Below, piece after piece: positions 26,442 to 37,543 of a DNA stretch of 37,543 nucleotides; positions within the stretch are counted from its first letter, which is position 1; each line of letters begins with the position of its first letter. The notes under the pieces were generated by a model. The model saw only the letters and a list, made by a program, of their open reading frames with translations, did no database searches and had not been told where the DNA came from. The stretch is taken from the NCBI GenBank assembly GCA_001920415.1, contig MNJR01000059.1, positions 133,575 to 171,117 of the forward strand, in the 5' to 3' direction. Source of the stretch: Acidobacteria bacterium 13_1_20CM_3_53_8. GTDB lineage: Bacteria > Acidobacteriota > Blastocatellia > Pyrinomonadales > Pyrinomonadaceae. Made by a program: the position numbers and the translations under genes.

Positions 26442-29400
26442 ATGCCCCGACCCGTTTCTCTCAAACAATTACGAAGATATATAGGCGTACTGTTGATTGC
26501 CGTCGGCGTGATGGCGCTGGGCTGGCGTGTGGCCGTGCAAGTGTCTGCGCAGACCTCTACGACGGTAATCTTCAGCGATGATTTTAACGACAACTCGCGC
26601 GACACCTCTAAGTGGAACGTGGGCGTGCTGAGCCAGGCTTCGGGCGACTTCGATTCAAGGGTTACTGTTCGTGAGCAGAATCAGCGCCTTGAGATTACGC
26701 CGCTGAATAGTGTGAAAGGGCGAAATTACAACGGCTACGTCTCTGTATCATCTTTTAATCTGACGAACGCGCGCGCTATGGTCGAAGCTGTTCAAGTGCC
26801 CACGAGCAGTTCCTCGTTCGCGCTCTTCGCGGTTGGGATTAATAGCAACAACTGGTTTCGCATCAGGGCTAACTCCAGCACTATCTATTTCCAGCAGAAC
26901 ATTAACGGCGCTATAGATTCTACAAGCGTTACATACAACTCCACGCAGCATCATTACTGGCGCATACGGCACGATTCTTCGAGCGGCAACATCACGTTCG
27001 AGACCAGCGCAGACAATATAACGTGGACGGCGCGGCGAACTGTACAGCCGCAAATTTCTATCACAGCATTGCGCCTGGAGCTTAACGGTGGAACGGACGG
27101 GTCTGTAAACTCGCCCGGCATGGCTATATTCAATAACCCTGTGCTTGACATGACGAGCGTGACGCCCACTCCGACTCCCACGCCAACGCCAACTCCTATA
27201 CCGTCGCCCAACGTACTATTGAGCGATAATTTCAACGCCACCTCGATTGATACGACCAGGTGGTACGTAGGCGCGCTCAGCAAGCCCTTTGATACGGCTG
27301 TAACGTCGCGCCAGCAGAATGGTCAATTGCAAATCAGTCCACTCAGTTCCGCGAGCGGCGAGCATTACGGCGGCTATGTCTCTTTGAGTAAGTGGAATTT
27401 GACAGGCGCGCGCGCCACCGTTCAGATAGTGCAGCCTGCCACGAACGCCGCAGGCAACGAAACAAATTTTTATCTCTCTATAGACAGCAACAACTGGTAT
27501 CGTTTCAAAATAGAGGAGGGAAAACTCTATTTTTATCAGGATATAAGCGGGAATAAAACATACGTTACGGTTCCTTACAACGCAACGCAGCATCAATGGC
27601 TGCGGCTACGACATGACCCCGCAATAGATGCGATTATTTGGGAGACCAGCCCGGACGGCGCGGCGTGGACGGTCATGCGTATAGAGACACGCGCTCTGCC
27701 CATCACGGCACTGAATGTAGAGCTTGATGCTGGTACATATCAGGCTGTCAGTTCGCCCGGCACAGCCCTGTTCGACAACTTCACTCTGGATTTAAACGGC
27801 GCATCACCCATACCAACGCCGACCCCGACTCCGACTCCAACGCCGAGTCCAACCCCTACGCCCTCGCCTACGCCTACGTCGTCGCTTACGCTGGTCTTCG
27901 GCGATGATTTCAATGACAACTTTCGGGACACTGCACGTTGGAATCTGGGGGTATTCAGCCTTCCGCCTTCGGCTTATAACCCAAGCATTCCCGTCCTTGA
28001 ACAGAACCAGAGGTTGGAGATCATGCCGCAAGCTAATACTTCCGTACAGTCTTATAACGGATACGTCTCGGCTGCGACCTTTAACATGACAGGCGCGTCT
28101 GCGACCGTGCAAGTGCTGCAAGTGCCCGGCGGGTCAGCCCAGGCAATTTTCGCTGTCGGCGTTGACAGCCAGGATTGGTTTCGCATAGCTTCGCGCTCAG
28201 GTCTAATCTTTTTCGAGGACATGTCCTTCGGCACGAAGAGTTCCGTAAGCATCACCTACAACGCAGCGCAGCACCGTTACATGCGTATTCGACATGATAG
28301 CGGGACAGATTTGATCAGTTTTGAAACAAGCGGCGACGGGCTTGTGTGGACTGTGCAGCGCACAATTTCCAGACAATTTGGAATAACCGCTATGCGCATG
28401 GAGTTGGACGGCGGTACGTTCGAGGCAGTGAGTGTGCCCGGCACAGCCATCTTCGACAACTTCCGTCTTGAGTCAGTCTTCCCTACACAGACGGCCTGGA
28501 GCAAACGCAACGAGGTGGTCAACGACAGCGTTTCGACGCACCGCTATAGCCACCCTCAACCCTTTGAGTTGGACAACGGCGCTCTGATTGCAGGATTCAC
28601 TACAAACGAAGACTCTACCATTTACCAATACAAGCTGATTCGCTCAACGGACGGCGGCGCAACGTGGAGTTCAAAAGTCACCATAGCCGCAAGCTCCAGC
28701 AACATATACGAAGGGTCTTTCGCGCAGACGAGCGCCACGAATCTGGTCTGCGTCTACGGCGACGGTGATGGTGTAGCCCTGAAGCGCTCCAGTGATCGTG
28801 GCGCGACATGGGGAAGCGCTATAACGATTGCGCCGACGGGAGGCGGAGCCGATTGTCACCCGTCAATCGCCAATCTGGGCAACAATAATCTTTTAATCGC
28901 CTATGGCTATAGCGGCAAAATCCTGATCACGAAGTCAACGGACGGCGGCGCAACGTGGAGCATTCCAACGACTGTGTCTGCGAGCGCGACTCAATATTAC
29001 AACTCGCCCTCAGTGGTTCGTATGCCATCAGGCGCTCTGGTGCTTGCCTTTACTTCGGGCACAGGAGACGCGCTCGCCCCGCGCATCTACATCATGCGCT
29101 CGCTGGATTCTGGAGCCACGTGGTCATCGCCCGTTACGACGAAAGCTGCGGCGCAATATAGCTTCAACGATCCCAACCTTACAGTGCTCAATAACGGCGA
29201 TCTTGTGATGTGGCTTGTCAACGGCAAAGAGAACGGCATCAGGTGGGATTCCTTCATGCTCTCGCACGACGGGGGACAGACGTGGAGTTGCGAATCCTTC
29301 GTCTACAACAACGGCGACCCGCACAGACTAAACGGCATACAGCTAAGAAACGGCTCTATGATTCTCATGTGCGCTTCCCGTGACGGCTCCGACACCGAGT

Positions 29401-29456
29401 ATCACATAACATCGCTCGCGCCTCCACCGAATTGGCCCACCAGCCAGTGTCCTTGA
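26442..29456 (+). CDS. Large secreted protein: three laminin/concanavalin-like domains, Pro/Thr linkers, C-terminal BNR (sialidase-type) domain
   Basis: 1004 aa. An N-terminal hydrophobic segment (RRYIGVLLIAVGVMALGWRVAVQVSAQ) serves as signal or anchor. Three homologous domains of about 200 aa follow, each opening with a variant of FSDDFNDNSRDTSKWNVGVLS and closing with a variant of PGTAIFDNFRLES. They are joined by linkers of alternating Pro and Thr (encoded near 27160-27205 and 27805-27875). Residues about 685-1000 form a sialidase-like propeller with five Asp-box/BNR repeats (STDGGATWSS, SSDRGATWGS, STDGGATWSI, SLDSGATWSS, SHDGGQTWSC). I chose ATG 26442; the open frame starts at 26337 but that lead is palindrome sequence. 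Likely extracellular glycan binding or hydrolysis; activity not certain. Confidence 0.85.
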   Translation: MPRPVSLKQLRRYIGVLLIAVGVMALGWRVAVQVSAQTSTTVIFSDDFNDNSRDTSKWNVGVLSQASGDFDSRVTVREQNQRLEITPLNSVKGRNYNGYVSVSSFNLTNARAMVEAVQVPTSSSSFALFAVGINSNNWFRIRANSSTIYFQQNINGAIDSTSVTYNSTQHHYWRIRHDSSSGNITFETSADNITWTARRTVQPQISITALRLELNGGTDGSVNSPGMAIFNNPVLDMTSVTPTPTPTPTPTPIPSPNVLLSDNFNATSIDTTRWYVGALSKPFDTAVTSRQQNGQLQISPLSSASGEHYGGYVSLSKWNLTGARATVQIVQPATNAAGNETNFYLSIDSNNWYRFKIEEGKLYFYQDISGNKTYVTVPYNATQHQWLRLRHDPAIDAIIWETSPDGAAWTVMRIETRALPITALNVELDAGTYQAVSSPGTALFDNFTLDLNGASPIPTPTPTPTPTPSPTPTPSPTPTSSLTLVFGDDFNDNFRDTARWNLGVFSLPPSAYNPSIPVLEQNQRLEIMPQANTSVQSYNGYVSAATFNMTGASATVQVLQVPGGSAQAIFAVGVDSQDWFRIASRSGLIFFEDMSFGTKSSVSITYNAAQHRYMRIRHDSGTDLISFETSGDGLVWTVQRTISRQFGITAMRMELDGGTFEAVSVPGTAIFDNFRLESVFPTQTAWSKRNEVVNDSVSTHRYSHPQPFELDNGALIAGFTTNEDSTIYQYKLIRSTDGGATWSSKVTIAASSSNIYEGSFAQTSATNLVCVYGDGDGVALKRSSDRGATWGSAITIAPTGGGADCHPSIANLGNNNLLIAYGYSGKILITKSTDGGATWSIPTTVSASATQYYNSPSVVRMPSGALVLAFTSGTGDALAPRIYIMRSLDSGATWSSPVTTKAAAQYSFNDPNLTVLNNGDLVMWLVNGKENGIRWDSFMLSHDGGQTWSCESFVYNNGDPHRLNGIQLRNGSMILMCASRDGSDTEYHITSLAPPPNWPTSQCP

Positions 29457-29901
29457 TTACGGGAACACTAAAGGCTACACACTGGAACGCGAGCGCAAAT
29501 CTGGCCTTACGCGCAAACGTAAACAGACACCTACGAAGTGGCACCTTAACCACTGGCGCGTTCGTTCGTTATGCTCGCGTTAGATGGATAAACGCGCCAT
29601 TCTCAATCGGATGTTGCTAAGATATTGTTATGGACAATCGGAAGATGAAAAGCGCTTCCGTGATAGCGCGTATTAAATTCCACAATTGAATCTTTCTGTG
29701 GAATTATAACAGGCGACGGATAGCTGTTGAGATTTGCTATGAATAGCTGTAAAAGTAACCTATCTGGTGTGGAAGCACCGCAGCCACCTAATTCATCAAC
29801 AGTATTGGCTGCCTAATTACTCGACCAATACAAATTCCATAGCAATTCCTTAAGGTGCGGCGGATTAGACGGCTAAATGGGCGTAATATGACACGGCGAT
29901 T
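29457..29901. other. 445-bp spacer before the cassette array
   Basis: No gene is supported, and in particular no integrase. An inverted repeat AATTCCACA / TGTGGAATT sits at 29676-29684 and 29697-29705. Near 29817-29895 the sequence weakly resembles a decayed attC (CCTAATTACTCGACC ... GGCTAAATGGGCGTAAT), too diverged to call. Confidence 0.5.
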
Positions 29902-29929
29902 AGTACGCCTAACTTAAGTTATCTGTACT
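29902..29929 (+). other. attI-like integron core site at the start of the array
   Basis: Two integrase-type cores face each other: GCCTAAC (29907-29913) and GTTATCT (29918-29924), 4 bases apart, the geometry of an attI simple site (L and R boxes). They lie inside a larger imperfect palindrome AGTAC...AACTTAAGTT...GTACT. The first cassette begins at 29919, directly after the G of GTTATCT. It could instead be an attC reduced by deletion of its stem. Confidence 0.5.
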
Positions 29930-30202
29930 GCGCCGCTAATGCGAGAGTTGAATTGAAAAGAGGTTGTGCATCGCCGCTCGCTTTGTTGAATAGAATTGAT
30001 AGTTGGATGATTTAGCTCTGTGAATTGGATTGAACATAGAATCTAGATGCTAGACTAATCGCTATCGCGTGCGCTCGCGGGCGAGAATGTTTGGCGCGCC
30101 AGATAACAAATCAATCAACCGGACGCTCGACCTGAATGCCTTTCATCATTTATCTTTACGACGATAGTTGAATGATTGCTCTCGCGCCGGTTATCTCAAG
30201 CG
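29919..30202 (+). mobile_element. Recurrent ORF-less cassette, copy 1
   Basis: 284 bp with no coding frame. Conserved blocks shared with copies 2-5: TTATCTG at the start, CTGCGCCGCT and ATGCGAGAG, then ATCGCCGCTCGCTTTGTTGA, TTTAGCTCTG, and CTAATCGCTATCGCG followed by TGCGCTCGCGGGCGAG, ending GGCGCGCCAGATAAC and the attC. Linkers between blocks are A/T-rich and variable. Confidence 0.85.
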
Positions 30203-30208
30203 TTATCT
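30101..30208 (+). other. attC site 1
   Basis: R'' AGATAAC (30101-30107), L-side arm CAAATCAATCAACCGGACGC, returning arm GCGCCGGTTATCTCAAGC, R' GTTATCT (30202-30208). Length 108. By eye it is identical over its full length to attC site 7. Confidence 0.88.
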
Positions 30209-30485
30209 GGTCTGCGCCGCTGATGCGAGAGTTGAATAGAAAGAGGTTGAGCATCGCCGCTCGCTTTCTTGAATAATGATGATAGTTGAATTGCTTAGCT
30301 CTGCGAATTGAATAGAATGTTGAATGATAATGCTAGGCTAATCGCCATGCGGCGTGCGCTCGCGGCGAAATGTTTGGCGCGCCAGATAACAAATCAATGA
30401 ACCGGACGCTCGACTTGCAATCCTCTCAAGATTATCCTTTGCTTCGGAGGTTGGATGCTTGCTCTCGCGCCGGTTATCTCAAGCG
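30203..30485 (+). mobile_element. Recurrent ORF-less cassette, copy 2
   Basis: 283 bp, no coding frame, tandem with copy 1. Conserved blocks as in copy 1, but the GC-rich hairpin region is altered (CTAATCGCCATGCGGCG, TGCGCTCGCGGCG) in a way that still pairs around the unchanged TGCGCT loop. Confidence 0.85.
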
Positions 30486-30491
30486 TTAGGT
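30384..30491 (+). other. attC site 2
   Basis: R'' AGATAAC (30384-30390), arms AAATCAATGAACCGGACGC and GCGCCGGTTATCTCAAGC, R' GTTAGGT (30485-30491). Its variable central part matches attC site 8 with only a few differences. Confidence 0.87.
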
Positions 30492-30528
30492 TTCTTCCTT
30501 TTCCCAAGCCAATTGATAAAATGTCTGC

Positions 30529-31071
30529 ATGAAGATTAAAGACCTGAAACAATATCTTGATACGCGCTCTAGGGAACAATTGATTGCTGAAATAGGCGAT
30601 ATGTTCTCAAAGATAGATTCAGTCAGGGATTACTATCAGAGCAAGCTGAATTTCGGCTATAGCGCAGAAGTGGCGGAGAAATATAAGTCCAGCATCAAAC
30701 ATGAATTCTTCCCTGCGCGTGGCTTTGGTCGAGCACAACTGTCTGTTGCCAGAAAAGCTGTTAGTGATTACAGAAAAGTATCTGATTCAAAGTTCGGTGT
30801 GGCAGACGTGATGCTTTATTATGTTGAAATAGGTGTGCAGTTCACCAATACCTATGGAGATATTGATGAAGCTTTCTATAACAGCATGGAGAGCATGTAT
30901 GAAAGGGTAGTAAAATATATCGTGCAGCATAGGATGCAAGGGCAGTTTGAAGAGAGGTGTCGCAAGATCGTAGCCGACACGTCAGAAATGGGCTGGGGAT
31001 TTCACGATGGGTTGAGCTATATCTATGCAGAGCATTTCAAGGAAGAATCATCATCGGAGAGCGAAACCTAA
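30529..31071 (+). CDS. Cassette-encoded DUF6155-like protein
   Basis: 180 aa, soluble, mostly helical and charged: MKIKDLKQYLDTRSREQLIAEIGDMFSKIDSVRDYYQSKL, then RAQLSVARKAVSDYRKVS and YYVEIGVQFTNTYGDIDEAFYNSMESMYERVVKYI. The N-terminal pattern (LKQYL..RSREQLIAEI....S.VRDYYQSKL) recalls DUF6155, a family of unknown function; I hold this match as moderate. The TAA stop lies inside the R'' core of attC site 3, typical for a cassette gene. The cassette runs from 30486 to 31169 and starts TTAGGTTTC, complementary to GAAACCTAA at its end. No strong ribosome site precedes ATG 30529. Confidence 0.8.
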   Translation: MKIKDLKQYLDTRSREQLIAEIGDMFSKIDSVRDYYQSKLNFGYSAEVAEKYKSSIKHEFFPARGFGRAQLSVARKAVSDYRKVSDSKFGVADVMLYYVEIGVQFTNTYGDIDEAFYNSMESMYERVVKYIVQHRMQGQFEERCRKIVADTSEMGWGFHDGLSYIYAEHFKEESSSESET

Positions 31072-31175
31072 CAACTCATTCAACCCGACGCCTCGATAGC
31101 ATTCTTTTCATCGTTGAATTATCCTTCCTGTGTTGAAGGCTGTTCGCTCGGCGCGGGTTAATTCGGGCGTTATCT
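31066..31175 (+). other. attC site 3
   Basis: R'' ACCTAAC (31066-31072), arm CAACTCATTCAACCCGACGC, returning arm GGCGCGGGTTAATTCGGGC, R' GTTATCT (31169-31175). Its arms closely match attC site 11. Confidence 0.9.
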
Positions 31176-31431
31176 GGTCTGCGCCGCTGATGCGAGAGTT
31201 GATAAAGAATAAAGTTGAGCATCGCCGCTCGCTTTGTTGAATAATGATGAGAGTTGAATCGCTTGACTCTGCGTGTGAATCACAGATTGAATCTAGATGC
31301 TAGACTAATCGCTATCGCGTGCGCTCGCGGGCGAGAATGATTGGCGCGACAGATAACAAATCAATCAACCGGACGCGCAATCAGCTTGGATTTTATCTTC
31401 GATGTTGGCGGCGCGCCGGTTATCTCAAGCG
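31170..31431 (+). mobile_element. Recurrent ORF-less cassette, copy 3
   Basis: 262 bp, no coding frame; the body matches copies 1, 2, 4 and 5 block by block. Its attC is shorter (87 bp). It shares GAATCTAGATGCTAGACTAA exactly with copy 1 but its 5' block with copies 2 and 5, a mosaic pattern. Confidence 0.85.
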
Positions 31432-31437
31432 TTAGGC
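31351..31437 (+). other. attC site 4
   Basis: R'' AGATAAC (31351-31357), arms AAATCAATCAACCGGACGC and GCGCGCCGGTTATCTCAAGC, R' GTTAGGC (31431-31437). The shortest attC of the array. Confidence 0.87.
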
Positions 31438-31557
31438 GGCTGCAACCTTCTTAGCATTACCCTCGTAATAGCGAAGCAAGAACGTAATGTTAGGCGCGCT
31501 GTTAATATGTGCACTCTCTGATCATTATGTAAGTAGAGATGCCTGGAGGGAGTTGAT

Positions 31558-31587
31558 ATGAAGGAGCACCAAGAGAATATCAAATGA
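31558..31587 (+). CDS. Nine-residue leader peptide upstream of cassette membrane protein
   Basis: ATG at 31558 reads MKEHQENIK and stops in TGA at 31585-31587, overlapping the ATG of the next gene (ATGA). A strong ribosome site (GGAGGGAG) precedes this mini-frame, whereas none is well placed for the downstream ATG. This suggests translational coupling. Very short, so held with moderate confidence. Confidence 0.45.
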   Translation: MKEHQENIK

Positions 31588-31967
31588 AACCTAACGTTAT
31601 GTTAACCATCGCGTCCCTGCTCTCGATCCTCTTCGGCACGTTTCACCTAGCGGACGACATCAACCGCGGGATGTCACCGGGAGGGCTTACAAACCTCACT
31701 GCGGTGGTCTTCTGCGTCGTCGGGCTGTACGGAACGCTCGTGCTCGCCGGACGGCGCTCGGGGTATGTCATCATCCTCCTCGCGTCGCTCCTGTTGATGG
31801 GCGTCCCCGTCATCCACATGAGAGGGAAGGGTATCGGCTTCGGGACCACCCGCAGCGGGGGTCTCTTCTTCGTCTGGACACTCCTCGCGATGGGCGTGAC
31901 CGCGCTCTTCTCCGTCATCCTCTCGGCGCGCGGACTGTGGAGCCTGCGACGGGGCCAGCCCCAGTAG
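31584..31967 (+). CDS. Cassette-encoded small four-helix membrane protein
   Basis: 127 aa with four hydrophobic helices: VMLTIASLLSILFGTFHLAD, LTAVVFCVVGLYGTLVLAG, GYVIILLASLLLMGVPVIHM and GLFFVWTLLAMGVTALFSVIL, and a basic C-terminus (GLWSLRRGQPQ). I do not recognise a family. Codon and base composition are much more G/C-rich than the neighbouring cassettes, pointing to a foreign source. The ATG overlaps a nine-codon leader frame. The cassette is 31432-32240, with extra core-like sites at 31489-31495 and 32078-32084 that suggest it is a fusion of two cassettes. Confidence 0.78.
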   Translation: MKPNVMLTIASLLSILFGTFHLADDINRGMSPGGLTNLTAVVFCVVGLYGTLVLAGRRSGYVIILLASLLLMGVPVIHMRGKGIGFGTTRSGGLFFVWTLLAMGVTALFSVILSARGLWSLRRGQPQ

Positions 31968-32140
31968 TCCAACAAACCGAACACAGAAAGGCCCGTCGCC
32001 GAGGCGGTCTGTGAGCGGCGCGGATCGGATTGCGGTCGGCGACCGCCGCGCGAGAGTTCTATTCAAGGCGAAGTGCGGGCTAACAACTCGATGGAGCCGA
32101 CCCGGCCAGCATACAGCAGTCGCCTCCTGACTCACGCGCC

Positions 32141-32246
32141 ACCTAACAACTCATTCAACCGGAGCGGCGGTTGCGTGCTTTTCATCATTCTTCTATCCTT
32201 CAATCTTGAATGATTTTGCGCCGCCCGGTTAATTTGGGCGTTAGGC
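32141..32246 (+). other. attC site 5
   Basis: R'' ACCTAAC (32141-32147), arm AACTCATTCAACCGGAGCGG, returning arm CGCCGCCCGGTTAATTTGGG, R' GTTAGGC (32240-32246). Confidence 0.9.
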
Positions 32247-32277
32247 ATCTTTATTTTGTGTAGTATGGTAGGTGGAT

Positions 32278-33099
32278 ATGACGATAGTATTTACCCCAGC
32301 TTTCAATGCTTTGGTGAAGGAAGCTCAATTCACTAAAGAGATGCTTGGCTCTGGTGCAACTCAAATTCGAGGTGCAAATTATGCAACGAAGGGCATCTAT
32401 TTCCAAGCCTTTACCAGTTTATCTACAGGGTTAGAACGAATCGGGAAACTTTGCCTCATGCTTGATTACTATATCGAAACTCAGGGGCAATTCCCGGATG
32501 ACAAGTATATGAAGAATGTGATTGGGCATAAAATTTCCCTCATTTATCAAAAATCAATGTCCATAATTAATGACCGCTCAATTTCGCTAAATTACTTGGG
32601 AAATCTTGATGGAACAATCCATCAAAATATTTTGACAGTTCTCTCCGATTTTGCTGGGGGAGATCGTTATTCCAACATTAATCTCTTGGTTAGAAGCAAA
32701 CGGCAAAGTGATCCTATCGCCTCGTGGTTTGAAACAGTAGATCGGGCTATCTTCCAGTTATGCGTTTCTGCCAAGAAAAAGGCCACGATTGCACACAATG
32801 CCCATATAGTTAATCAAATGATTGGCGGCTTTTCGAGTGTTCTTTATAGCTCTGAATCTGGAAGCGAAATTACAGATGTTGAAGACGCAAGCTATAGAAC
32901 TGGAATGTGGAAGGCCGTCGCACCGTATCGTCAGCTATTTGTCTTGCAAATAATTAGATTCTGGGTGGAATTGGTATGGGGGCTGCAAGATAAGGCAATG
33001 GCAATTGGTAATGATATTCCATTTCTTAGTGAAATATTTGCCCCCTTCTACAACGACGATTCCTACCTTAGAAGCCGTAAAACATGGGATAAGATTTGA
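32278..33099 (+). CDS. Cassette-encoded hypothetical protein (273 aa)
   Basis: I do not recognise the family. The protein is soluble and largely helical. A stretch GLERIGKLCLMLDYYIETQG followed by NVIGHKISLIYQKS recalls the 'G.ER..K........GH.L..L' layout seen in some HEPN-like proteins, but no R-x4-6-H catalytic motif is clear, so this is only a hint. ATG at 32278 is favoured by AGGTGG just upstream; an in-frame GTG at 32272 would add two residues. The gene is clearly more A/T-rich than its neighbours, a sign of separate origin. It fills cassette 32241-33252, whose attC has an altered R' core. Confidence 0.75.
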   Translation: MTIVFTPAFNALVKEAQFTKEMLGSGATQIRGANYATKGIYFQAFTSLSTGLERIGKLCLMLDYYIETQGQFPDDKYMKNVIGHKISLIYQKSMSIINDRSISLNYLGNLDGTIHQNILTVLSDFAGGDRYSNINLLVRSKRQSDPIASWFETVDRAIFQLCVSAKKKATIAHNAHIVNQMIGGFSSVLYSSESGSEITDVEDASYRTGMWKAVAPYRQLFVLQIIRFWVELVWGLQDKAMAIGNDIPFLSEIFAPFYNDDSYLRSRKTWDKI

Positions 33100-33156
33100 T
33101 TTCGTCAAGAATGGCAGCACAAATTAAAATCGCTCCGCATTTTATCGAAGTACGCC

Positions 33157-33258
33157 GCCTAACAACTCATTCAACCGGAGCGCGGGTTAGCTTGATTTTC
33201 ATCGTCAACTTGAATCTGTCGGCGTTGTGTGCGCGCCCGGTTAATTCGGGCATTATCT
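33157..33258 (+). other. attC site 6, altered R' core
   Basis: R'' GCCTAAC (33157-33163), arm AACTCATTCAACCGGAGCGC, returning arm GCGCCCGGTTAATTCGGGC, but the R' core reads ATTATCT (33252-33258) in place of GTTATCT. The changed base is the G next to the cleavage point. Confidence 0.85.
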
Positions 33259-33536
33259 GTACTGCGCCGCTGATGCGAGAGGCATGAGATAATGAAGATG
33301 CTGATCGCCGCTCGCTTCGTTGAATAGAATTGAGAGTTGAATGGTTTAGCTCTGCGTGTGGAAATGTTGCTTGAATCTAAATGCAAGGCTAATCGCTATC
33401 GCGTGCGCTCGCGGGCGAGAATGATTGGCGCGACAGATAACAAATCAATCAACCGGACGCTCGACCTGAATGCCTTTCATCATTTATCTTTACGACGATA
33501 GTTGAATGATTGCTCTCGCGCCGGTTATCTCAAGCG
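33253..33536 (+). mobile_element. Recurrent ORF-less cassette, copy 4
   Basis: 284 bp, no coding frame. It starts TTATCTGTACTG like copy 1. The segment after ATGCGAGAG differs (GCATGAGATAATGAAGATGC) while the later blocks are conserved. Its attC equals that of copy 1. Confidence 0.85.
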
Positions 33537-33542
33537 TTATCT
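33435..33542 (+). other. attC site 7
   Basis: R'' AGATAAC (33435-33441), R' GTTATCT (33536-33542), 108 bp. Identical by eye to attC site 1 although the cassette bodies before them differ at many positions. Confidence 0.88.
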
Positions 33543-33819
33543 GGTCTGCGCCGCTGATGCGAGAGTTGAATAGAAAGAGGTTGTGCATCGCCGCTCGCTT
33601 TGTTGAATATGGATGAGAGTTGAATGGTTTAACTCTGCGAGTGACAATGTTCGTTGAATTTCTATGCGAGGCTAATCGCTATCGCGTGCGCTCGCGGGCG
33701 AGAATGTTTGGCGCGCCAGATAACAAATCAATCAACCGGACGCTCGACTTGCAATCCTCTCAAGATTATCCTTTGATTCGGAGGTTGGATGATTGTTCTC
33801 GCGCCGGTTATCTCAAGCG
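33537..33819 (+). mobile_element. Recurrent ORF-less cassette, copy 5
   Basis: 283 bp, no coding frame, tandem with copy 4 in the same order as copies 1 and 2. The 5' block matches copy 2 and the attC is close to that of copy 2. Confidence 0.85.
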
Positions 33820-33825
33820 TTGGGC
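33718..33825 (+). other. attC site 8
   Basis: R'' AGATAAC (33718-33724), arms AAATCAATCAACCGGACGC and GCGCCGGTTATCTCAAGC, R' GTTGGGC (33819-33825). Confidence 0.87.
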
Positions 33826-33892
33826 GTTTAGTATGGGCTTGCCCTCACGCCGTAGCGGTCGACGGTAATAGGTTTCACCGGAGATATCGATA

Positions 33893-34414
33893 ATGCAAAT
33901 AGGGGCAACAGTCATCGCTGCCGTAATCGCTGCGTTTGCGGCGATATTTATGGGCATCGGAAATCTGTACGCGGGATATCGTCTCAAACGGAAAGAATTC
34001 AGGGTCGCGCAAATCAAATCACGAATAGATACGCTGGAACAAGCAGCCGTATCTAGCGGCCCAGCGTCAGATACGGACGACCAAACTGAAGAAAATGATC
34101 CTCTATTAAGAGCGGTGAACGCCGTCAAGGCTGCCGCTTGGCATCGCCTAACAGCAACGGAGAACCAATACGCCAAATACAAGTGGTTGTTGAATCCGGA
34201 GAGTCATGTCCTGTTAGAGAAGCTCTTAGCCGAGTGTAATCAGCGATCTAGTAACCTCGCACTGGCCAGCACCGAACGCGACCACGCAAAGTTTCAGCGG
34301 GACCTTCCAGAGTTCGTCGGCAAGACGCATGAATTACAAAAGGCGTACGAGAGGGCTAGGCTCGCTTCTATTGAAGCCTTATATTTCATTCTCAAGAAAG
34401 AGGTCGGAATATAA
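33893..34414 (+). CDS. Cassette-encoded membrane-anchored coiled protein, unknown
   Basis: 173 aa. One N-terminal membrane helix (GATVIAAVIAAFAAIFMGIGNLYAGY) followed by a charged, helical cytoplasmic or periplasmic part with Gln/Glu/Lys/Arg-rich stretches likely to coil (RLKRKEFRVAQIKSRIDTLE, then DLPEFVGKTHELQKAYERAR). I recognise no family. ATG at 33893 has CCGGAG about 10 bases upstream. The cassette (33820-34522) starts TTGGGCGTTT and its R'' is preceded by AAACGCCCAA, an exact 10-base complement. Its attC (site 9) is of a class different from all others here, so it probably came from another integron. Confidence 0.78.
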   Translation: MQIGATVIAAVIAAFAAIFMGIGNLYAGYRLKRKEFRVAQIKSRIDTLEQAAVSSGPASDTDDQTEENDPLLRAVNAVKAAAWHRLTATENQYAKYKWLLNPESHVLLEKLLAECNQRSSNLALASTERDHAKFQRDLPEFVGKTHELQKAYERARLASIEALYFILKKEVGI

Positions 34415-34422
34415 TCGCAAAC

Positions 34423-34528
34423 GCCCAACAAATCGTTGGACGCGAGCGGCGGTAGCGCCTCTCGCAAGTAGCTCGGTGCGGCGAAGGGTGCTTTGATTCG
34501 CGCCGCCGCGTCAACTCAACCGTTAGGT
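34423..34528 (+). other. attC site 9, divergent class
   Basis: R'' GCCCAAC (34423-34429), arm AAATCGTTGGACGCGAGCGG, returning arm CCGCCGCGTCAACTCAACC, R' GTTAGGT (34522-34528). The arms do not resemble the other ten sites. Confidence 0.85.
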
Positions 34529-34846
34529 TTCTGTTGAATGGTTAGGCTCAAAGAATTGAATCAGCTATCTTGAACTCAAATGAAGCAGAAGATTACTTGG
34601 ATGCTAATGCTTCTTGAATGGTGTGAGCCACACGCTAGGAATCGAAAGTTGATGCTTTGCTAAGTTGAATCGCCATGCGGCGCATCTTGCATTGAATGAT
34701 AGAATCTATGCTGAAGAATGATGAGACGAAGAATGCTAAAGATGAACGAAACCTAACAACTCATTCAACGCGAGCGGAAATAGCTTGGATGTCATTCGCC
34801 AGATCGGAGGCTTCTCTCAATTCTTCCCGCCGCGTTAATTCGGGCG
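34523..34846 (+). mobile_element. Unique ORF-less cassette
   Basis: 324 bp without a supported frame. It starts TTAGGTTTC, matching GAAACCTAA before its attC. Its body contains repeated TTGAAT words at irregular spacing and the phrase TTGAATCGCCATGCGGCG, which resembles the hairpin region of recurrent copy 2, so it may be a distant relative of that family. Confidence 0.75.
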
Positions 34847-34852
34847 TTAGGC
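34751..34852 (+). other. attC site 10
   Basis: R'' ACCTAAC (34751-34757), arm AACTCATTCAACGCGAGCGG, returning arm CCGCCGCGTTAATTCGGGC, R' GTTAGGC (34846-34852). Confidence 0.9.
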
Positions 34853-35007
34853 TGCTTCCTAATCAATGACTTTCTTACATCTATCTTGCCAAGATGTGAA
34901 ACGTTTTACGTCAAAAAGCCATATAAGGAGTGGAGGGCATTTTTCGAGGGCGGCGTGTCAGAGTCACCCCGCCACTACAATCAACCAAGAGAGGATGGAG
35001 GCAAATC

Positions 35008-36696
35008 ATGGCCGACCGAAAGGTGTTTCAAGATAGCGTAACGCCGCTCCCCGAGCAATCAGGACTAACTCACAACGGTCTGATGATAAATGCTGCAGAG
35101 CCAGAGCACCGGGATGAGATGATGACAGTTCTCTTTTCACTTGCGATTCCACCGCAAGCGCAGGCGCAGTTGGAAGAGAGGGTAGCTAGGGGAGAAGTCG
35201 TGCCGCTCGCAGAACTACAGAAGGACTATACTCCCAGCCCAGCCAGCCGTGAGTCGCTCGTGGGCTGGTTGAAGAAAGAGGGGTTCGAGATTATGGAGGT
35301 GTCAGACGATGGCACCAGCGTCTACGCACGGGCCAGCGTAGATCATATCGAGAAAAGTCTAGAGGTCAACATGACTCGTGTAACCAAGGACGGCATCACG
35401 TACACCGCCGCGCAAAATGCGCCGAGTCTGCCAGCTAATGTTGGGAAAGACGTTCACGCGATCATTGGGTTACAGCCGTTTCGGCAAGCGCACAAGAATA
35501 GTCGGAAGTGTTTCCCTTCGGGCGGCAATCGCATTTCTCTGCCGACAGGAGGTGCCGCGAAGAAAGGTGCGGCGAAAAAAGGCGTTACCAAAAAAGCTGC
35601 CGCCAAAGTAGGAGCCGCTGCTGCTGGCCCTTCGCCGAACATCCAAAATGCTCCCCCGTACCTTGTGCAGGAGATACTTAAGGCTTATAACGCCGACGGC
35701 TTGTCCGTGACCGGAAAGGGGCAAACGATTGCGATCCTGATTGACACTTTCCCCAACGATGCGGACCTAAAAGCTTTTTGGAAGCGTAACAACCTTCCGA
35801 ATACTTTGAAGCAGATTAAGAAGATCAACGTCAAGGGGGGCCAACTTCCCCCGCCGGAAGGTGAAGAGAGCCTTGACGTTGAATGGGCGAGCGGGATTGC
35901 GCCTAGCGCGAAGATCAGAATTTATGCCTCCGGATCATTGAGGTTCGTTGACCTTGATAGGGCCCTTGATCGTATTATCGCGGACTTGCCGACCCAGCCG
36001 GGGATGCGGCAATTGTCTATCAGTTTAGGTCTGGGCGAAACCTTCATGGGTGGGCCGCAGGGTGAGGTTGCGACGCAACACCAAAAGTTTCTCCGGCTCG
36101 CCGCCTCTGGCGTCAATGTTTTTGTTTCCAGCGGGGATGCAGGATCGAACCCCAGTGACAGTGGACACAGTTCAACAGGACCCACGCAAGCAGAGTATGA
36201 GTCTTCGGATTTGAGCGTTATTGGGGTAGGTGGTACGACTCTGACTCTCGCGGCAAACGGTATTGTTGTAGGTGAGAATGGCTGGACAGGCAGTGGCGGG
36301 GGTAAAAGTATCTTCTTCTCCCGTCCCTCGTGGCAGACTGGGGTCGGGGTGCCTCCTGGCAACGAACGACTCGTGCCGGATGTGAGTCTCGCCGCTGATC
36401 CTAATAAGGGTGCCTTTCTAGTGTTCCAAGGGAAGGTGGTCCAAATTGGCGGAACTAGCTGGAGTGCTCCTGTTTGGGCTGGCTTTTGCGCCTTGATAAA
36501 CGAGGCGCGAGCGAAGGCGAATAAGCCCCTCTTGCCATTTCTCAATCCGCTGATTTACCCGCTGATGGGTAGCTCATCCTTCCGGGACATCCTGACGGGG
36601 AATAACGGAGCTTTTGCAGCCAGCCCAGGCTACGATTTGGTCACGGGCATCGGTGTGCCAAACGTTAAGGCACTGATTAAAGCTTTAACGCAGTAG
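35008..36696 (+). CDS. Cassette-encoded S53 (sedolisin/kumamolisin-type) serine-carboxyl peptidase
   Basis: 562 aa. Residues about 30-165 form the pro-kumamolisin activation domain (VLFSLAIPPQAQAQLEERVA, then YARASVDHIEKSLEVNM). A Lys/Ala-rich linker follows (about 183-208, AAKKGAAKKGVTKKAAAK), then the S53 catalytic domain: Glu and Asp of the triad in GEESLDVEWASGIAP, the oxyanion Asp in VFVSSGDAGS, the nucleophile Ser in GGTSWSAPVWAGF, and the C-terminal calcium site (FRDILTGNNG, then GYDLVTGIGVPN). All catalytic residues are present. ATG 35008 has GGAGG 7 bases upstream; the frame is open back to 34930. No signal peptide is visible. Very large for a cassette gene; the cassette is 34847-37135. 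Confidence 0.9.
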   Translation: MADRKVFQDSVTPLPEQSGLTHNGLMINAAEPEHRDEMMTVLFSLAIPPQAQAQLEERVARGEVVPLAELQKDYTPSPASRESLVGWLKKEGFEIMEVSDDGTSVYARASVDHIEKSLEVNMTRVTKDGITYTAAQNAPSLPANVGKDVHAIIGLQPFRQAHKNSRKCFPSGGNRISLPTGGAAKKGAAKKGVTKKAAAKVGAAAAGPSPNIQNAPPYLVQEILKAYNADGLSVTGKGQTIAILIDTFPNDADLKAFWKRNNLPNTLKQIKKINVKGGQLPPPEGEESLDVEWASGIAPSAKIRIYASGSLRFVDLDRALDRIIADLPTQPGMRQLSISLGLGETFMGGPQGEVATQHQKFLRLAASGVNVFVSSGDAGSNPSDSGHSSTGPTQAEYESSDLSVIGVGGTTLTLAANGIVVGENGWTGSGGGKSIFFSRPSWQTGVGVPPGNERLVPDVSLAADPNKGAFLVFQGKVVQIGGTSWSAPVWAGFCALINEARAKANKPLLPFLNPLIYPLMGSSSFRDILTGNNGAFAASPGYDLVTGIGVPNVKALIKALTQ

Positions 36697-37032
36697 GGGA
36701 GTTGCTCCTCTGGACTCCTCAGAGTTAGCTCGCCGATGCGAGGCGCTGTCTAACACCTACTACAGGGCGGTGCGCCATGTGTGATCCTTCGCGAGACGGA
36801 AAACTCATGGCGCGCTGCGGCAGAACTCGACCGCTCAGATGGTCGTGCCGGATTTAGGCACTGGCTGAGAACCCGTCGCTTTATCACGTCGCGAGTCACT
36901 TCACAGTTCAGTTGGATATTTCACTACGAGGTCGAACCGCCTCCCTCCGTAGTATTCTTCACACGGCTTGATACATGCTGAGCGGTTCCTTGCGAAGTGC
37001 CATTGAGCGGCGCGTGGTTTCAATGACAGGCA
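36697..37032. other. 336-bp tail of the peptidase cassette
   Basis: No gene is well supported between the peptidase stop and attC site 11. A GTCTAAC core-like word lies at 36748-36754 without a matching R' partner. A GTG-started 66-codon frame at 36781-36981 has no ribosome site or recognisable motif. Confidence 0.45.
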
Positions 37033-37141
37033 GCCTAACAACTCATTCAACCCGACGCCTCGATAGCATTCTTTTCATGATGTTTCCTCTGATGTAGATT
37101 GAAGGCTTCTCGCTCGGCGCGGGTTAATTCGAGCGTTATGC
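37033..37141 (+). other. attC site 11
   Basis: R'' GCCTAAC (37033-37039), arm AACTCATTCAACCCGACGCC, returning arm GGCGCGGGTTAATTCGAGC, R' GTTATGC (37135-37141). The arm sequence, including CTCGATAGCATTCTTTTCAT, is shared with attC site 3. Confidence 0.9.
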
Positions 37142-37162
37142 GCCTAGCGAGGATAGATAACC

Positions 37163-37543
37163 ATGAAGCGAAGCAAGCGAAGATTCTCATACGCGGAACG
37201 CTACGCCGTCTGGTATTGCAATGGTCAGCGATGCTGGTGGTGCCGCCAGCCACTACGACTCTTTGAGGTAACTATAGATCACGTACTGCCAGAGTCACTG
37301 CTAGACGATGAGGAGAATCGACAGGCAATCCTATCTGAGTACGGCCTGCCGAATGACTTCAACATAAACGGCTATGAAAACTGGCTCCCGTGTCACAATC
37401 ATTGCAACCAGAGCAAAGGTAATACAAGTCCGGTCTTCATACCCGCCAACAAAGCAATACTTGACGGGTTAAAACAGAGGGCGCGCAAAGCCGAGCGCAC
37501 AGCACGTTCCGTGTCGTCAAACGTTGCCAAAGACAGCGTATTC
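37163..37543 (+). CDS. Cassette-encoded HNH endonuclease (3' end outside window)
   Basis: 127 codons with no stop before the right edge. Translation starts MKRSKRRFSYAERYAVWYC; ribosome site AGGA lies about 9 bases upstream of ATG 37163. It shows an HNH/zinc-finger layout: CWWC (first Cys pair), TIDHVLPES (the DH of the catalytic His), then NWLPCHNHCNQSKGN (Asn, second Cys/His pair). This is the McrA/5-methylcytosine-type or general HNH arrangement; such nucleases are frequent in restriction systems and integron cassettes. The C-terminal part seen is basic (KQRARKAERTARSV). Full length and any fused domain are unknown. It belongs to the cassette starting at 37136. Confidence 0.85.
   Translation, partial: MKRSKRRFSYAERYAVWYCNGQRCWWCRQPLRLFEVTIDHVLPESLLDDEENRQAILSEYGLPNDFNINGYENWLPCHNHCNQSKGNTSPVFIPANKAILDGLKQRARKAERTARSVSSNVAKDSVF

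Follow-up and report, generated by a model that had tools for sequence, protein, structure and literature searches.

The stretch of DNA considered here, hereafter the window, comprises 37,543 nucleotides of the genome of Acidobacteria bacterium 13_1_20CM_3_53_8 (contig C60, positions 133575-171117; genome code G000), an assembly of 6.1 Mb in 155 contigs with a completeness of 95.89%. It contains an integron cassette array in which one cassette lacking an open reading frame (ORF) occurs five times. ORF-less cassettes form a known, poorly explained class that has been studied mainly in Vibrio and Treponema. We use E as a working name for the family of the window cassette, and E' and E'' for two further ORF-less families. 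E is an integron cassette family that is dispersed in the genome, constrained in blocks of its sequence and over-represented at attI-like sites.

The cassette array of the window

The five copies of E lie on the forward strand at 29919-30202, 30203-30485, 31170-31431, 33253-33536 and 33537-33819, which are the borders given by the first-pass annotation of this DNA. Each is a complete integron cassette, in which an attC site follows a body of about 189 bp that has no ORF, and each extends between two successive G^TT recombination points, except that copy 4 is preceded by A^TT. The junction before this copy (33252-33253) reads GGGCATTATC instead of the expected GGGCGTTATC, the G of the recombination point being replaced by A. 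Copy 1 (body 29919-30107, attC 30101-30208) comes first after an attI-like site and has an attC loop of type A. Loops of type B are found in copy 2 (attC 30384-30491) and copy 5 (attC 33718-33825), a short loop of type C in copy 3 (attC 31351-31437), and a type A loop identical to that of copy 1 in copy 4 (attC 33435-33542).

The attI-like site that heads the array occupies 29727-29918 on the same strand; its core (29863-29918) runs from GATTAGACGGCTAAAT to TACGCCTAACTTA and abuts GTTATC, and no integrase gene lies beside it. Copies 2 and 3 are separated by a coding cassette for a 180 aa protein of Pfam family DUF6155 (30486-31169, attC 31066-31175). Two more coding cassettes fill 31432-33252 between copies 3 and 4 (attC 32141-32246 and 33157-33258), one with a frame of 127 aa in sense or 153 aa in antisense direction, the other with a frame of 275 aa; all three are on the forward strand. 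The window holds 11 attC sites, and the earlier count of five E copies among 12 cassettes is correct once the cassette cut by the window end is included.

Copies of E within and beyond the genome

Nine full copies of E (family range 261-285 bp) are present in the genome, five on C60 and one on each of the contigs C97, C127, C152 and C44, and their neighbouring cassettes differ. A tenth copy was found in another genus, in a soil metagenome-assembled genome of gp4 Acidobacteria (G133, record QHXQ01000123.1). The first-pass annotation had left room for the possibility that recent duplication alone explains why parts of the cassette are conserved. This is ruled out, because the nine own-genome copies are only 69-91% identical over the full cassette.

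The bodies of the five window copies have pairwise identities of 0.75-0.85, and conservation is concentrated in blocks. Among the five GC-rich blocks that had been proposed as common to the window copies, CTGCGCCGCT and ATCGCCGCTCGCTT are indeed found in all five, and moreover in all ten known copies of E; the remaining three are not universal, TTAGCTCTG occurring in three of the five and CTAATCGCTATCGCG and TGCGCTCGCGGGCGAG in four each, with copy 2 deviating. Over the ten copies, 73 of the 155 interior columns are invariant, with invariant runs of 14 and 11 columns. The longest of these was matched in a fraction of 0.0008 of 10,000 column shuffles, and the clustering is thus beyond chance. 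As had been claimed, no reading frame is conserved: body lengths modulo 3 vary, the longest open stretches fall in differing frames and strands, and six-frame stop counts taken together with lengths modulo 3 leave no frame open throughout the ten bodies. A conserved small ORF was rejected on this ground.

The search for homologues extended to 162 genomes of the class, in which a model of the E body found no clear match outside the own genome and G133, although only 16 candidates per genome were scored and weak homologues could escape. Weak matches at C79 and in G041 were not accepted on reading by eye, and another at C97 belongs to E' rather than E. A DNA search of the class returned a match of 69 nt at 81% in G050, which covers the attC portion and lies at a contig start, where a further copy of E may have been cut off; a match of 34 nt in G123 was not accepted by eye. 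In a collection of contigs, a two-block pattern occurs at 14 loci. Of these, the G133 record alone agrees with the body model, which fits neither the 13 others nor one viral contig with the pattern. Copy 5 of the window, used as a query against plasmids and phages, found no match. A 22-base block, searched with up to three mismatches in 396 genomes of the phylum, matched in 13 of them. The own genome accounts for the nine known copies and a site with three mismatches at C98 that is not a copy, and the single matches with two to three mismatches in each of the 12 other genomes are taken as chance.

The attC sites of E

E has the features of an integron cassette: a 3' attC site with paired R''/R' and L''/L' boxes, G^TT borders, occurrence in multiple arrays, and no frame. 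A covariance model was built from 28 attC sites, in whose stems 8 of 13 pairs have changed on both sides. It matches all five window copies with 71.6-80.0 bits; 3 of the 28 training sites are attC sites of E, and these match partly by construction. Genome-wide, 117 attC sites were found at an E-value of 0.01 or below, and 85 cassettes have both borders. The attC of E is unlike the majority type of the genome.

Three types can be distinguished among the attC loops of E. Loops of one type are 93-100% identical, bodies that share a loop type 67-89%, and mean body identity is 0.75 within loop types versus 0.78 between them. Loops and bodies look uncoupled, which would follow from homologous exchange among the copies if the breakpoint lay close to the conserved left end of the attC. 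The ends of the body pair with each other, GTTATCTGG with CCAGATAAC and GCGCC with GGCGC. Complementarity between ends is in itself not specific to E. In 62 non-E cassettes of the own genome and its relatives, the cassette start is complementary to the sequence just ahead of the attC over a median of 8 bases, and in 29 of the 62 the run reaches at least 9 bases (9-11, longer than the 7-base core), which gives the impression of a stem that extends further in the excised circle.

Dispersed attI-like sites and the integrase

The attI-like unit, which measures about 140-200 bp and includes a core of about 56-60 bp, ends at the recombination point. The unit of the window is 96-97% identical over 197-199 bp to those at C97 and C127, and the core occurs also at C44, C61, C76, C103, C152 and C23. 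A 22-base core pattern, allowing up to three mismatches, marks nine sites on nine contigs of the genome (reversed control, none) and has a single match among the other 161 genomes of the class, in G133; the same pattern search revealed no attI-like site at other attC clusters of the genome (e.g., C69, C111, C24, C149). By upstream similarity, the nine sites form one clade of C60, C127 and C97, another of C44, C61, C103 and C23, and two lone cores at C152 and C76. In comparison with attI1, the heads, when read by eye, show CCTAA-N5-GTTA with repeated GYCTAAT-like motifs upstream of it, and have an L box and a GTT R box. All nine sites are followed by cassettes; at C44 just one is seen before the contig ends.

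No IntI match above the cut-off, and none at an E-value of 1e-40 or below, was found in the own genome, as compared with 51 of the 162 class genomes above the cut-off, including G133, whose IntI lies on its contig C102. Weaker matches in the own genome look like other tyrosine recombinases. The upstream neighbour genes at C60, C97, C127, C152, C44 and C61 have no Pfam recombinase match, and tblastn of IntI from two relatives against the fetched own-genome loci gave distant matches only, none of them on a contig with an attI-like site. Both a loss and an assembly gap are possible, the latter because contig C31 ends inside an attI unit. Similar sites lie next to intI in relatives. The one in G127 shares 78% identity with the C61 site over 76 nt and 70% with the C127 site over 57 nt. 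Between the intI-linked attI of G133 and the C128 site that heads its E array, identity is 93% over 91 nt. G133 thus shows a dispersed attI copy on a contig without intI in view, though the genome has an integrase.

E cassettes and attI copies probably did not travel together. Over 199 bp, the attI unit of C60 matches that of C127 at 97% identity, compared with 86% for the E bodies inserted at the two sites, which suggests that E was not copied along with attI and arrived separately. Clusters of attC sites lacking integron integrases (CALIN) resemble this arrangement in being arrays without a neighbouring integrase that can be moved in trans (PMC12444791). They differ in that the nine cassette runs described here each begin with a complete attI-like site, whereas the CALIN definition given in that article has no attI.

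Position of E at array heads

The cassettes that directly follow the attI-like sites are E at C60, C127, C152 and C44, and E' at C97 and C61. Thus, E or E' fills six of the nine attI-adjacent slots, with 11 E/E' cassettes among the 85 that have two borders (p = 7.5e-5, for a post hoc statistic that pools the two families); E by itself fills four of the nine (p = 0.006). The sole E copy of G133 also comes first after its attI-like site.

The intI-linked arrays of relatives point, independently but weakly, in the same direction: in them, short ORF-less cassettes (body <320 nt, longest ORF <80 aa) make up 3 of 11 first cassettes vs. 2 of 54 others (Fisher p = 0.03); the starts of 9 of the 11 first cassettes were guessed from end complementarity, that of G153 being ambiguous, and the longest ORF of the G127 first cassette was set by hand, its body being too long for the filter anyway. 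The longest ORFs of the three cassettes in question are 45 aa (G034), 61 aa in antisense (G056) and 71 aa (G161). The array-head bias of short ORF-less cassettes may be general, and it extends beyond sites without intI. The G034 cassette (L212:292-512, 221 bp, no ORF >45 aa) lies directly after an attI that adjoins intI.

A strand-polar motif shared with other ORF-less families

The hexamer TTGAAT occurs 36 times in sense and never in antisense direction in the ten E bodies, as against 23 and 24 times on the two strands of 51 coding cassettes (47.5 kb). The two E'' cassettes carry five and six sense copies and no antisense copy, and the two E' cassettes two sense copies each, with one in antisense. 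All 17 genome matches to a triple-TTGAAT pattern, some of them overlapping, lie in E or E'' (reversed control, none). This pattern is informative for the own genome only, as 74 of the 162 class genomes, the own included, match it and the listed matches are largely of low complexity.

By the same length filter, 14 of the 85 cassettes are short and ORF-less; 13 of these belong to E, E' or E'', and the 14th has a frame of 56 codons. E has nine copies and E' and E'' two each, so that E alone exceeds two, and repeated coding cassettes occur as pairs. One E'' cassette, ORF-less and rich in TTGAAT, lies in the window at 34523-34846 on the forward strand, beginning with TTAGGTTTCTGTTGAATGG and ending with ACGAAACCTAAC before its attC; the second (L033:12479-12796) lies farther downstream on the same contig. 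The E' cassettes, L038:9068-9380 at C61 and about L034:12567-12879 at C97, directly follow attI and are about 80% identical to each other.

Further cassettes were noted outside these families. Two longer ones have no ORF of 80 aa, the second cassette of C103 (L040:7128-7715, 588 bp), with two sense TTGAAT, and the third of C76 (L111:7861-8799, 939 bp). In another genus, G116 has an ORF-less cassette (L206:3195-3404, 210 bp) with ends of the GTTATC type, GTTATCTCGC and GCGAGATAAC; it also has the shared sequence GTTGAATGGTTTAA and does not match the body model. A pairing of TTGAAT-bearing RNA with the ATTCAA of attC was also considered, and is weakened by this G116 cassette, which has TTGAAT and an attC without ATTCAA.

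Folding and covariation

The first-pass annotation had proposed E as a candidate structured RNA or regulatory element, with covariation among the checks. Folding, covariation and Rfam leave the RNA part of this proposal unsupported, and it was rejected as such; E is probably not a classical structured RNA. Full-length bodies fold with a mean z of -1.5 in sense and -2.7 in antisense direction, an excess that is mainly due to the terminal inverted repeat, since it is largely lost when the ends are removed: for 11 interiors (ten E bodies and one E'), the mean z against shuffles is -0.03 in sense and -0.9 in antisense direction. Two antisense interiors stand out, those of copy 5 (z = -3.6) and of C127 (z = -2.6). 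The covariation check turned out negative, with an unfavourable RNAalifold term (+0.48) and 1 of 37 pairs doubly changed, in an alignment of ten sequences whose mean column identity of 86% keeps power low. The best interior hairpin keeps its register but was equalled by 278 of 500 column shuffles, and a scan of positions 29400-37543 against Rfam 15 gave no match at an E-value of 1 or below. A small hairpin in columns 82-102 of alignment A1 keeps its pairing register in 93.8% of cells vs. 22-54% when slid, and a second one, recognized by eye, exists in three sequence versions (CGCC-ATGC-GGCG, CGCT-ATAC-AGCG and CGGC-AATA-GCCG).

E as a candidate regulatory cassette

ORF-less and promoter cassettes are already known. 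Most of 29 gene-less cassettes of Vibrio show promoter activity in sense direction (PMC11014356). They resemble E in having an attC and no ORF, in lying in chromosomal arrays and in their proposed cis effect downstream; they differ in being 491-666 bp long, with promoters established by experiment, whereas E (261-285 bp) is multi-copy, with conserved blocks and TTGAAT, and is described from its sequence. ORF-less cassettes of Treponema from the oral metagenome carry promoters, including one at the first position of an array (PMC6557892), and a review describes such a first-position promoter cassette as supplying a new promoter (PMC8876359). The Treponema promoters were demonstrated in a reporter, whereas E sits at attI-like sites without an adjoining integrase gene. 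In the open-access literature, represented mostly by titles and beginnings of abstracts, we found no description of multi-copy cassette families with a polar motif or of multiple attI sites without intI in one genome.

The reading that we favour, tentatively, is that E is a regulatory ('promoter') cassette mobilized by an integron integrase. An integrase that acts in trans, or one that was present earlier and has been lost, would have inserted each copy, and the body would be cis-acting regulatory DNA at array heads, in which the conserved blocks and the sense TTGAAT motifs form the regulatory sequence. The downstream coding cassettes would obtain a promoter or a leader from E, which would replace or supplement Pc, the promoter that is normally tied to intI and would be missing at the dispersed attI sites. 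The array-head position and the published promoter cassettes fit such a role, which the first-pass annotation had named as a promoter cassette or a protein-binding array.

Several observations weigh against it. A consensus scan found no sense sigma-70-like site inside the five window copies; the scanned region has 10 such sites vs. 6.8 ± 2.7 expected, and the four that lie inside E copies are all antisense. In silico calls failed to predict the activity of the Vibrio gene-less cassettes (PMC11014356), and because they are unreliable the missing sense call is weak evidence either way. There are 10 terminator-like sites vs. 4.2 ± 1.9 expected, two of them in sense direction in copies 2 and 3, which is at odds with a promoter or leader role; by eye, the stem is not kept in other copies. 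Three of the nine arrays (C103, C76 and C23) start with coding cassettes, and the positional statistic for E and E' is, as said, post hoc and pooled. The absence of Pc can account for the head position at most in part, because short ORF-less first cassettes occur also in intI-bearing arrays. Finally, an ORF-less Treponema cassette in first position added no expression beyond Pc (PMC6557892).

A selfish cassette is nearly as likely as a promoter cassette. E would then be a non-coding counterpart of miniature inverted-repeat transposable elements (MITE-like), without host function, that spreads because it is a good integrase substrate, and the heads of arrays would hold the newest attI insertions. 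Since attI is where cassettes enter, an active one would be expected in first position, and the head position of E is what this explanation expects. That the only family with more than two copies among the 85 cassettes, E, is a non-coding one, and that its attC departs from the majority type, also speak for it. The conserved interior is harder to reconcile with selfishness, as the two genera have the blocks in common and the invariant columns are clustered, neither of which is needed for mobility through attC; the strand-polar TTGAAT is common to three ORF-less families, and the bodies have diverged further than a recent burst would allow. An unlikely alternative is a small RNA or structured leader borne by the cassette, transcribed in array direction and offering small hairpins and UUGAAU contact sites. 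It has a precedent in the sRNA-Xcc1 cassette of Xanthomonas, in which a widespread integron cassette contains a non-coding RNA (PMC12444791, PMC8876359). In those sources, that cassette also encodes symE and its RNA was studied by experiment, whereas the window region lacks an Rfam match. The in-register hairpin, the hairpin in three versions and the two antisense interiors with z below -2 (2 of 11) argue for such an RNA, and the mean interior z values, the single doubly changed pair, the column shuffles and the Rfam result argue against it.

Two further explanations are much less probable. If the ORF-less cassettes were decayed gene cassettes, remnants of former ORFs without a present role, they would parallel the pseudogenised gene-less cassettes reported in Vibrio (PMC11014356), and the longer C103 and C76 cassettes could be such remnants. 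Decay would hardly place 13 of 14 short ORF-less cassettes in three recurrent TTGAAT-rich families, with a 56-codon frame in the 14th, or keep blocks over ten copies in which no frame is open throughout, and we regard it as very improbable. It would be just as surprising if the body consisted of integrase-related DNA, that is, of sites that bind an integron integrase or act as its decoys, or of half-attC remnants in reverse orientation that influence recombination. The reverse complement of TTGAAT, ATTCAA, occurs in the left end of 21 of the 28 aligned attC sites, and GTTGAATGGTTAGGC in E'' resembles, by eye, the left half of an attC on the opposite strand. ATTCAA is absent, though, from the attC of E in all ten copies and from that of the G116 cassette, whose body has two sense TTGAAT.

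A wider form of the regulatory reading is doubtful. The genome would hold a multi-site integron, in which nine complete attI sites on nine contigs, away from any detected integrase, each seed cassettes, and the non-coding superfamily with TTGAAT and GC-rich blocks would be a dedicated control module for array heads, serving as a portable replacement of Pc or as a contact site for a trans-acting RNA, and would recur in three or more genera of the class. With attI-like sites dispersed and no integrase beside them, a single integrase might serve many arrays, which bears on the origin of CALIN and on how these are expressed without Pc. The function of the short ORF-less cassettes is open to direct test, because nearly all of those in this genome belong to a small number of repeated families that have conserved blocks and a polar motif.

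A neighbouring cassette for a TIR-domain protein

At C127, the cassette that comes second, after the E copy (L035:992-1789), encodes a TIR-domain protein that also matches ThsB_TIR of the Thoeris defence system.

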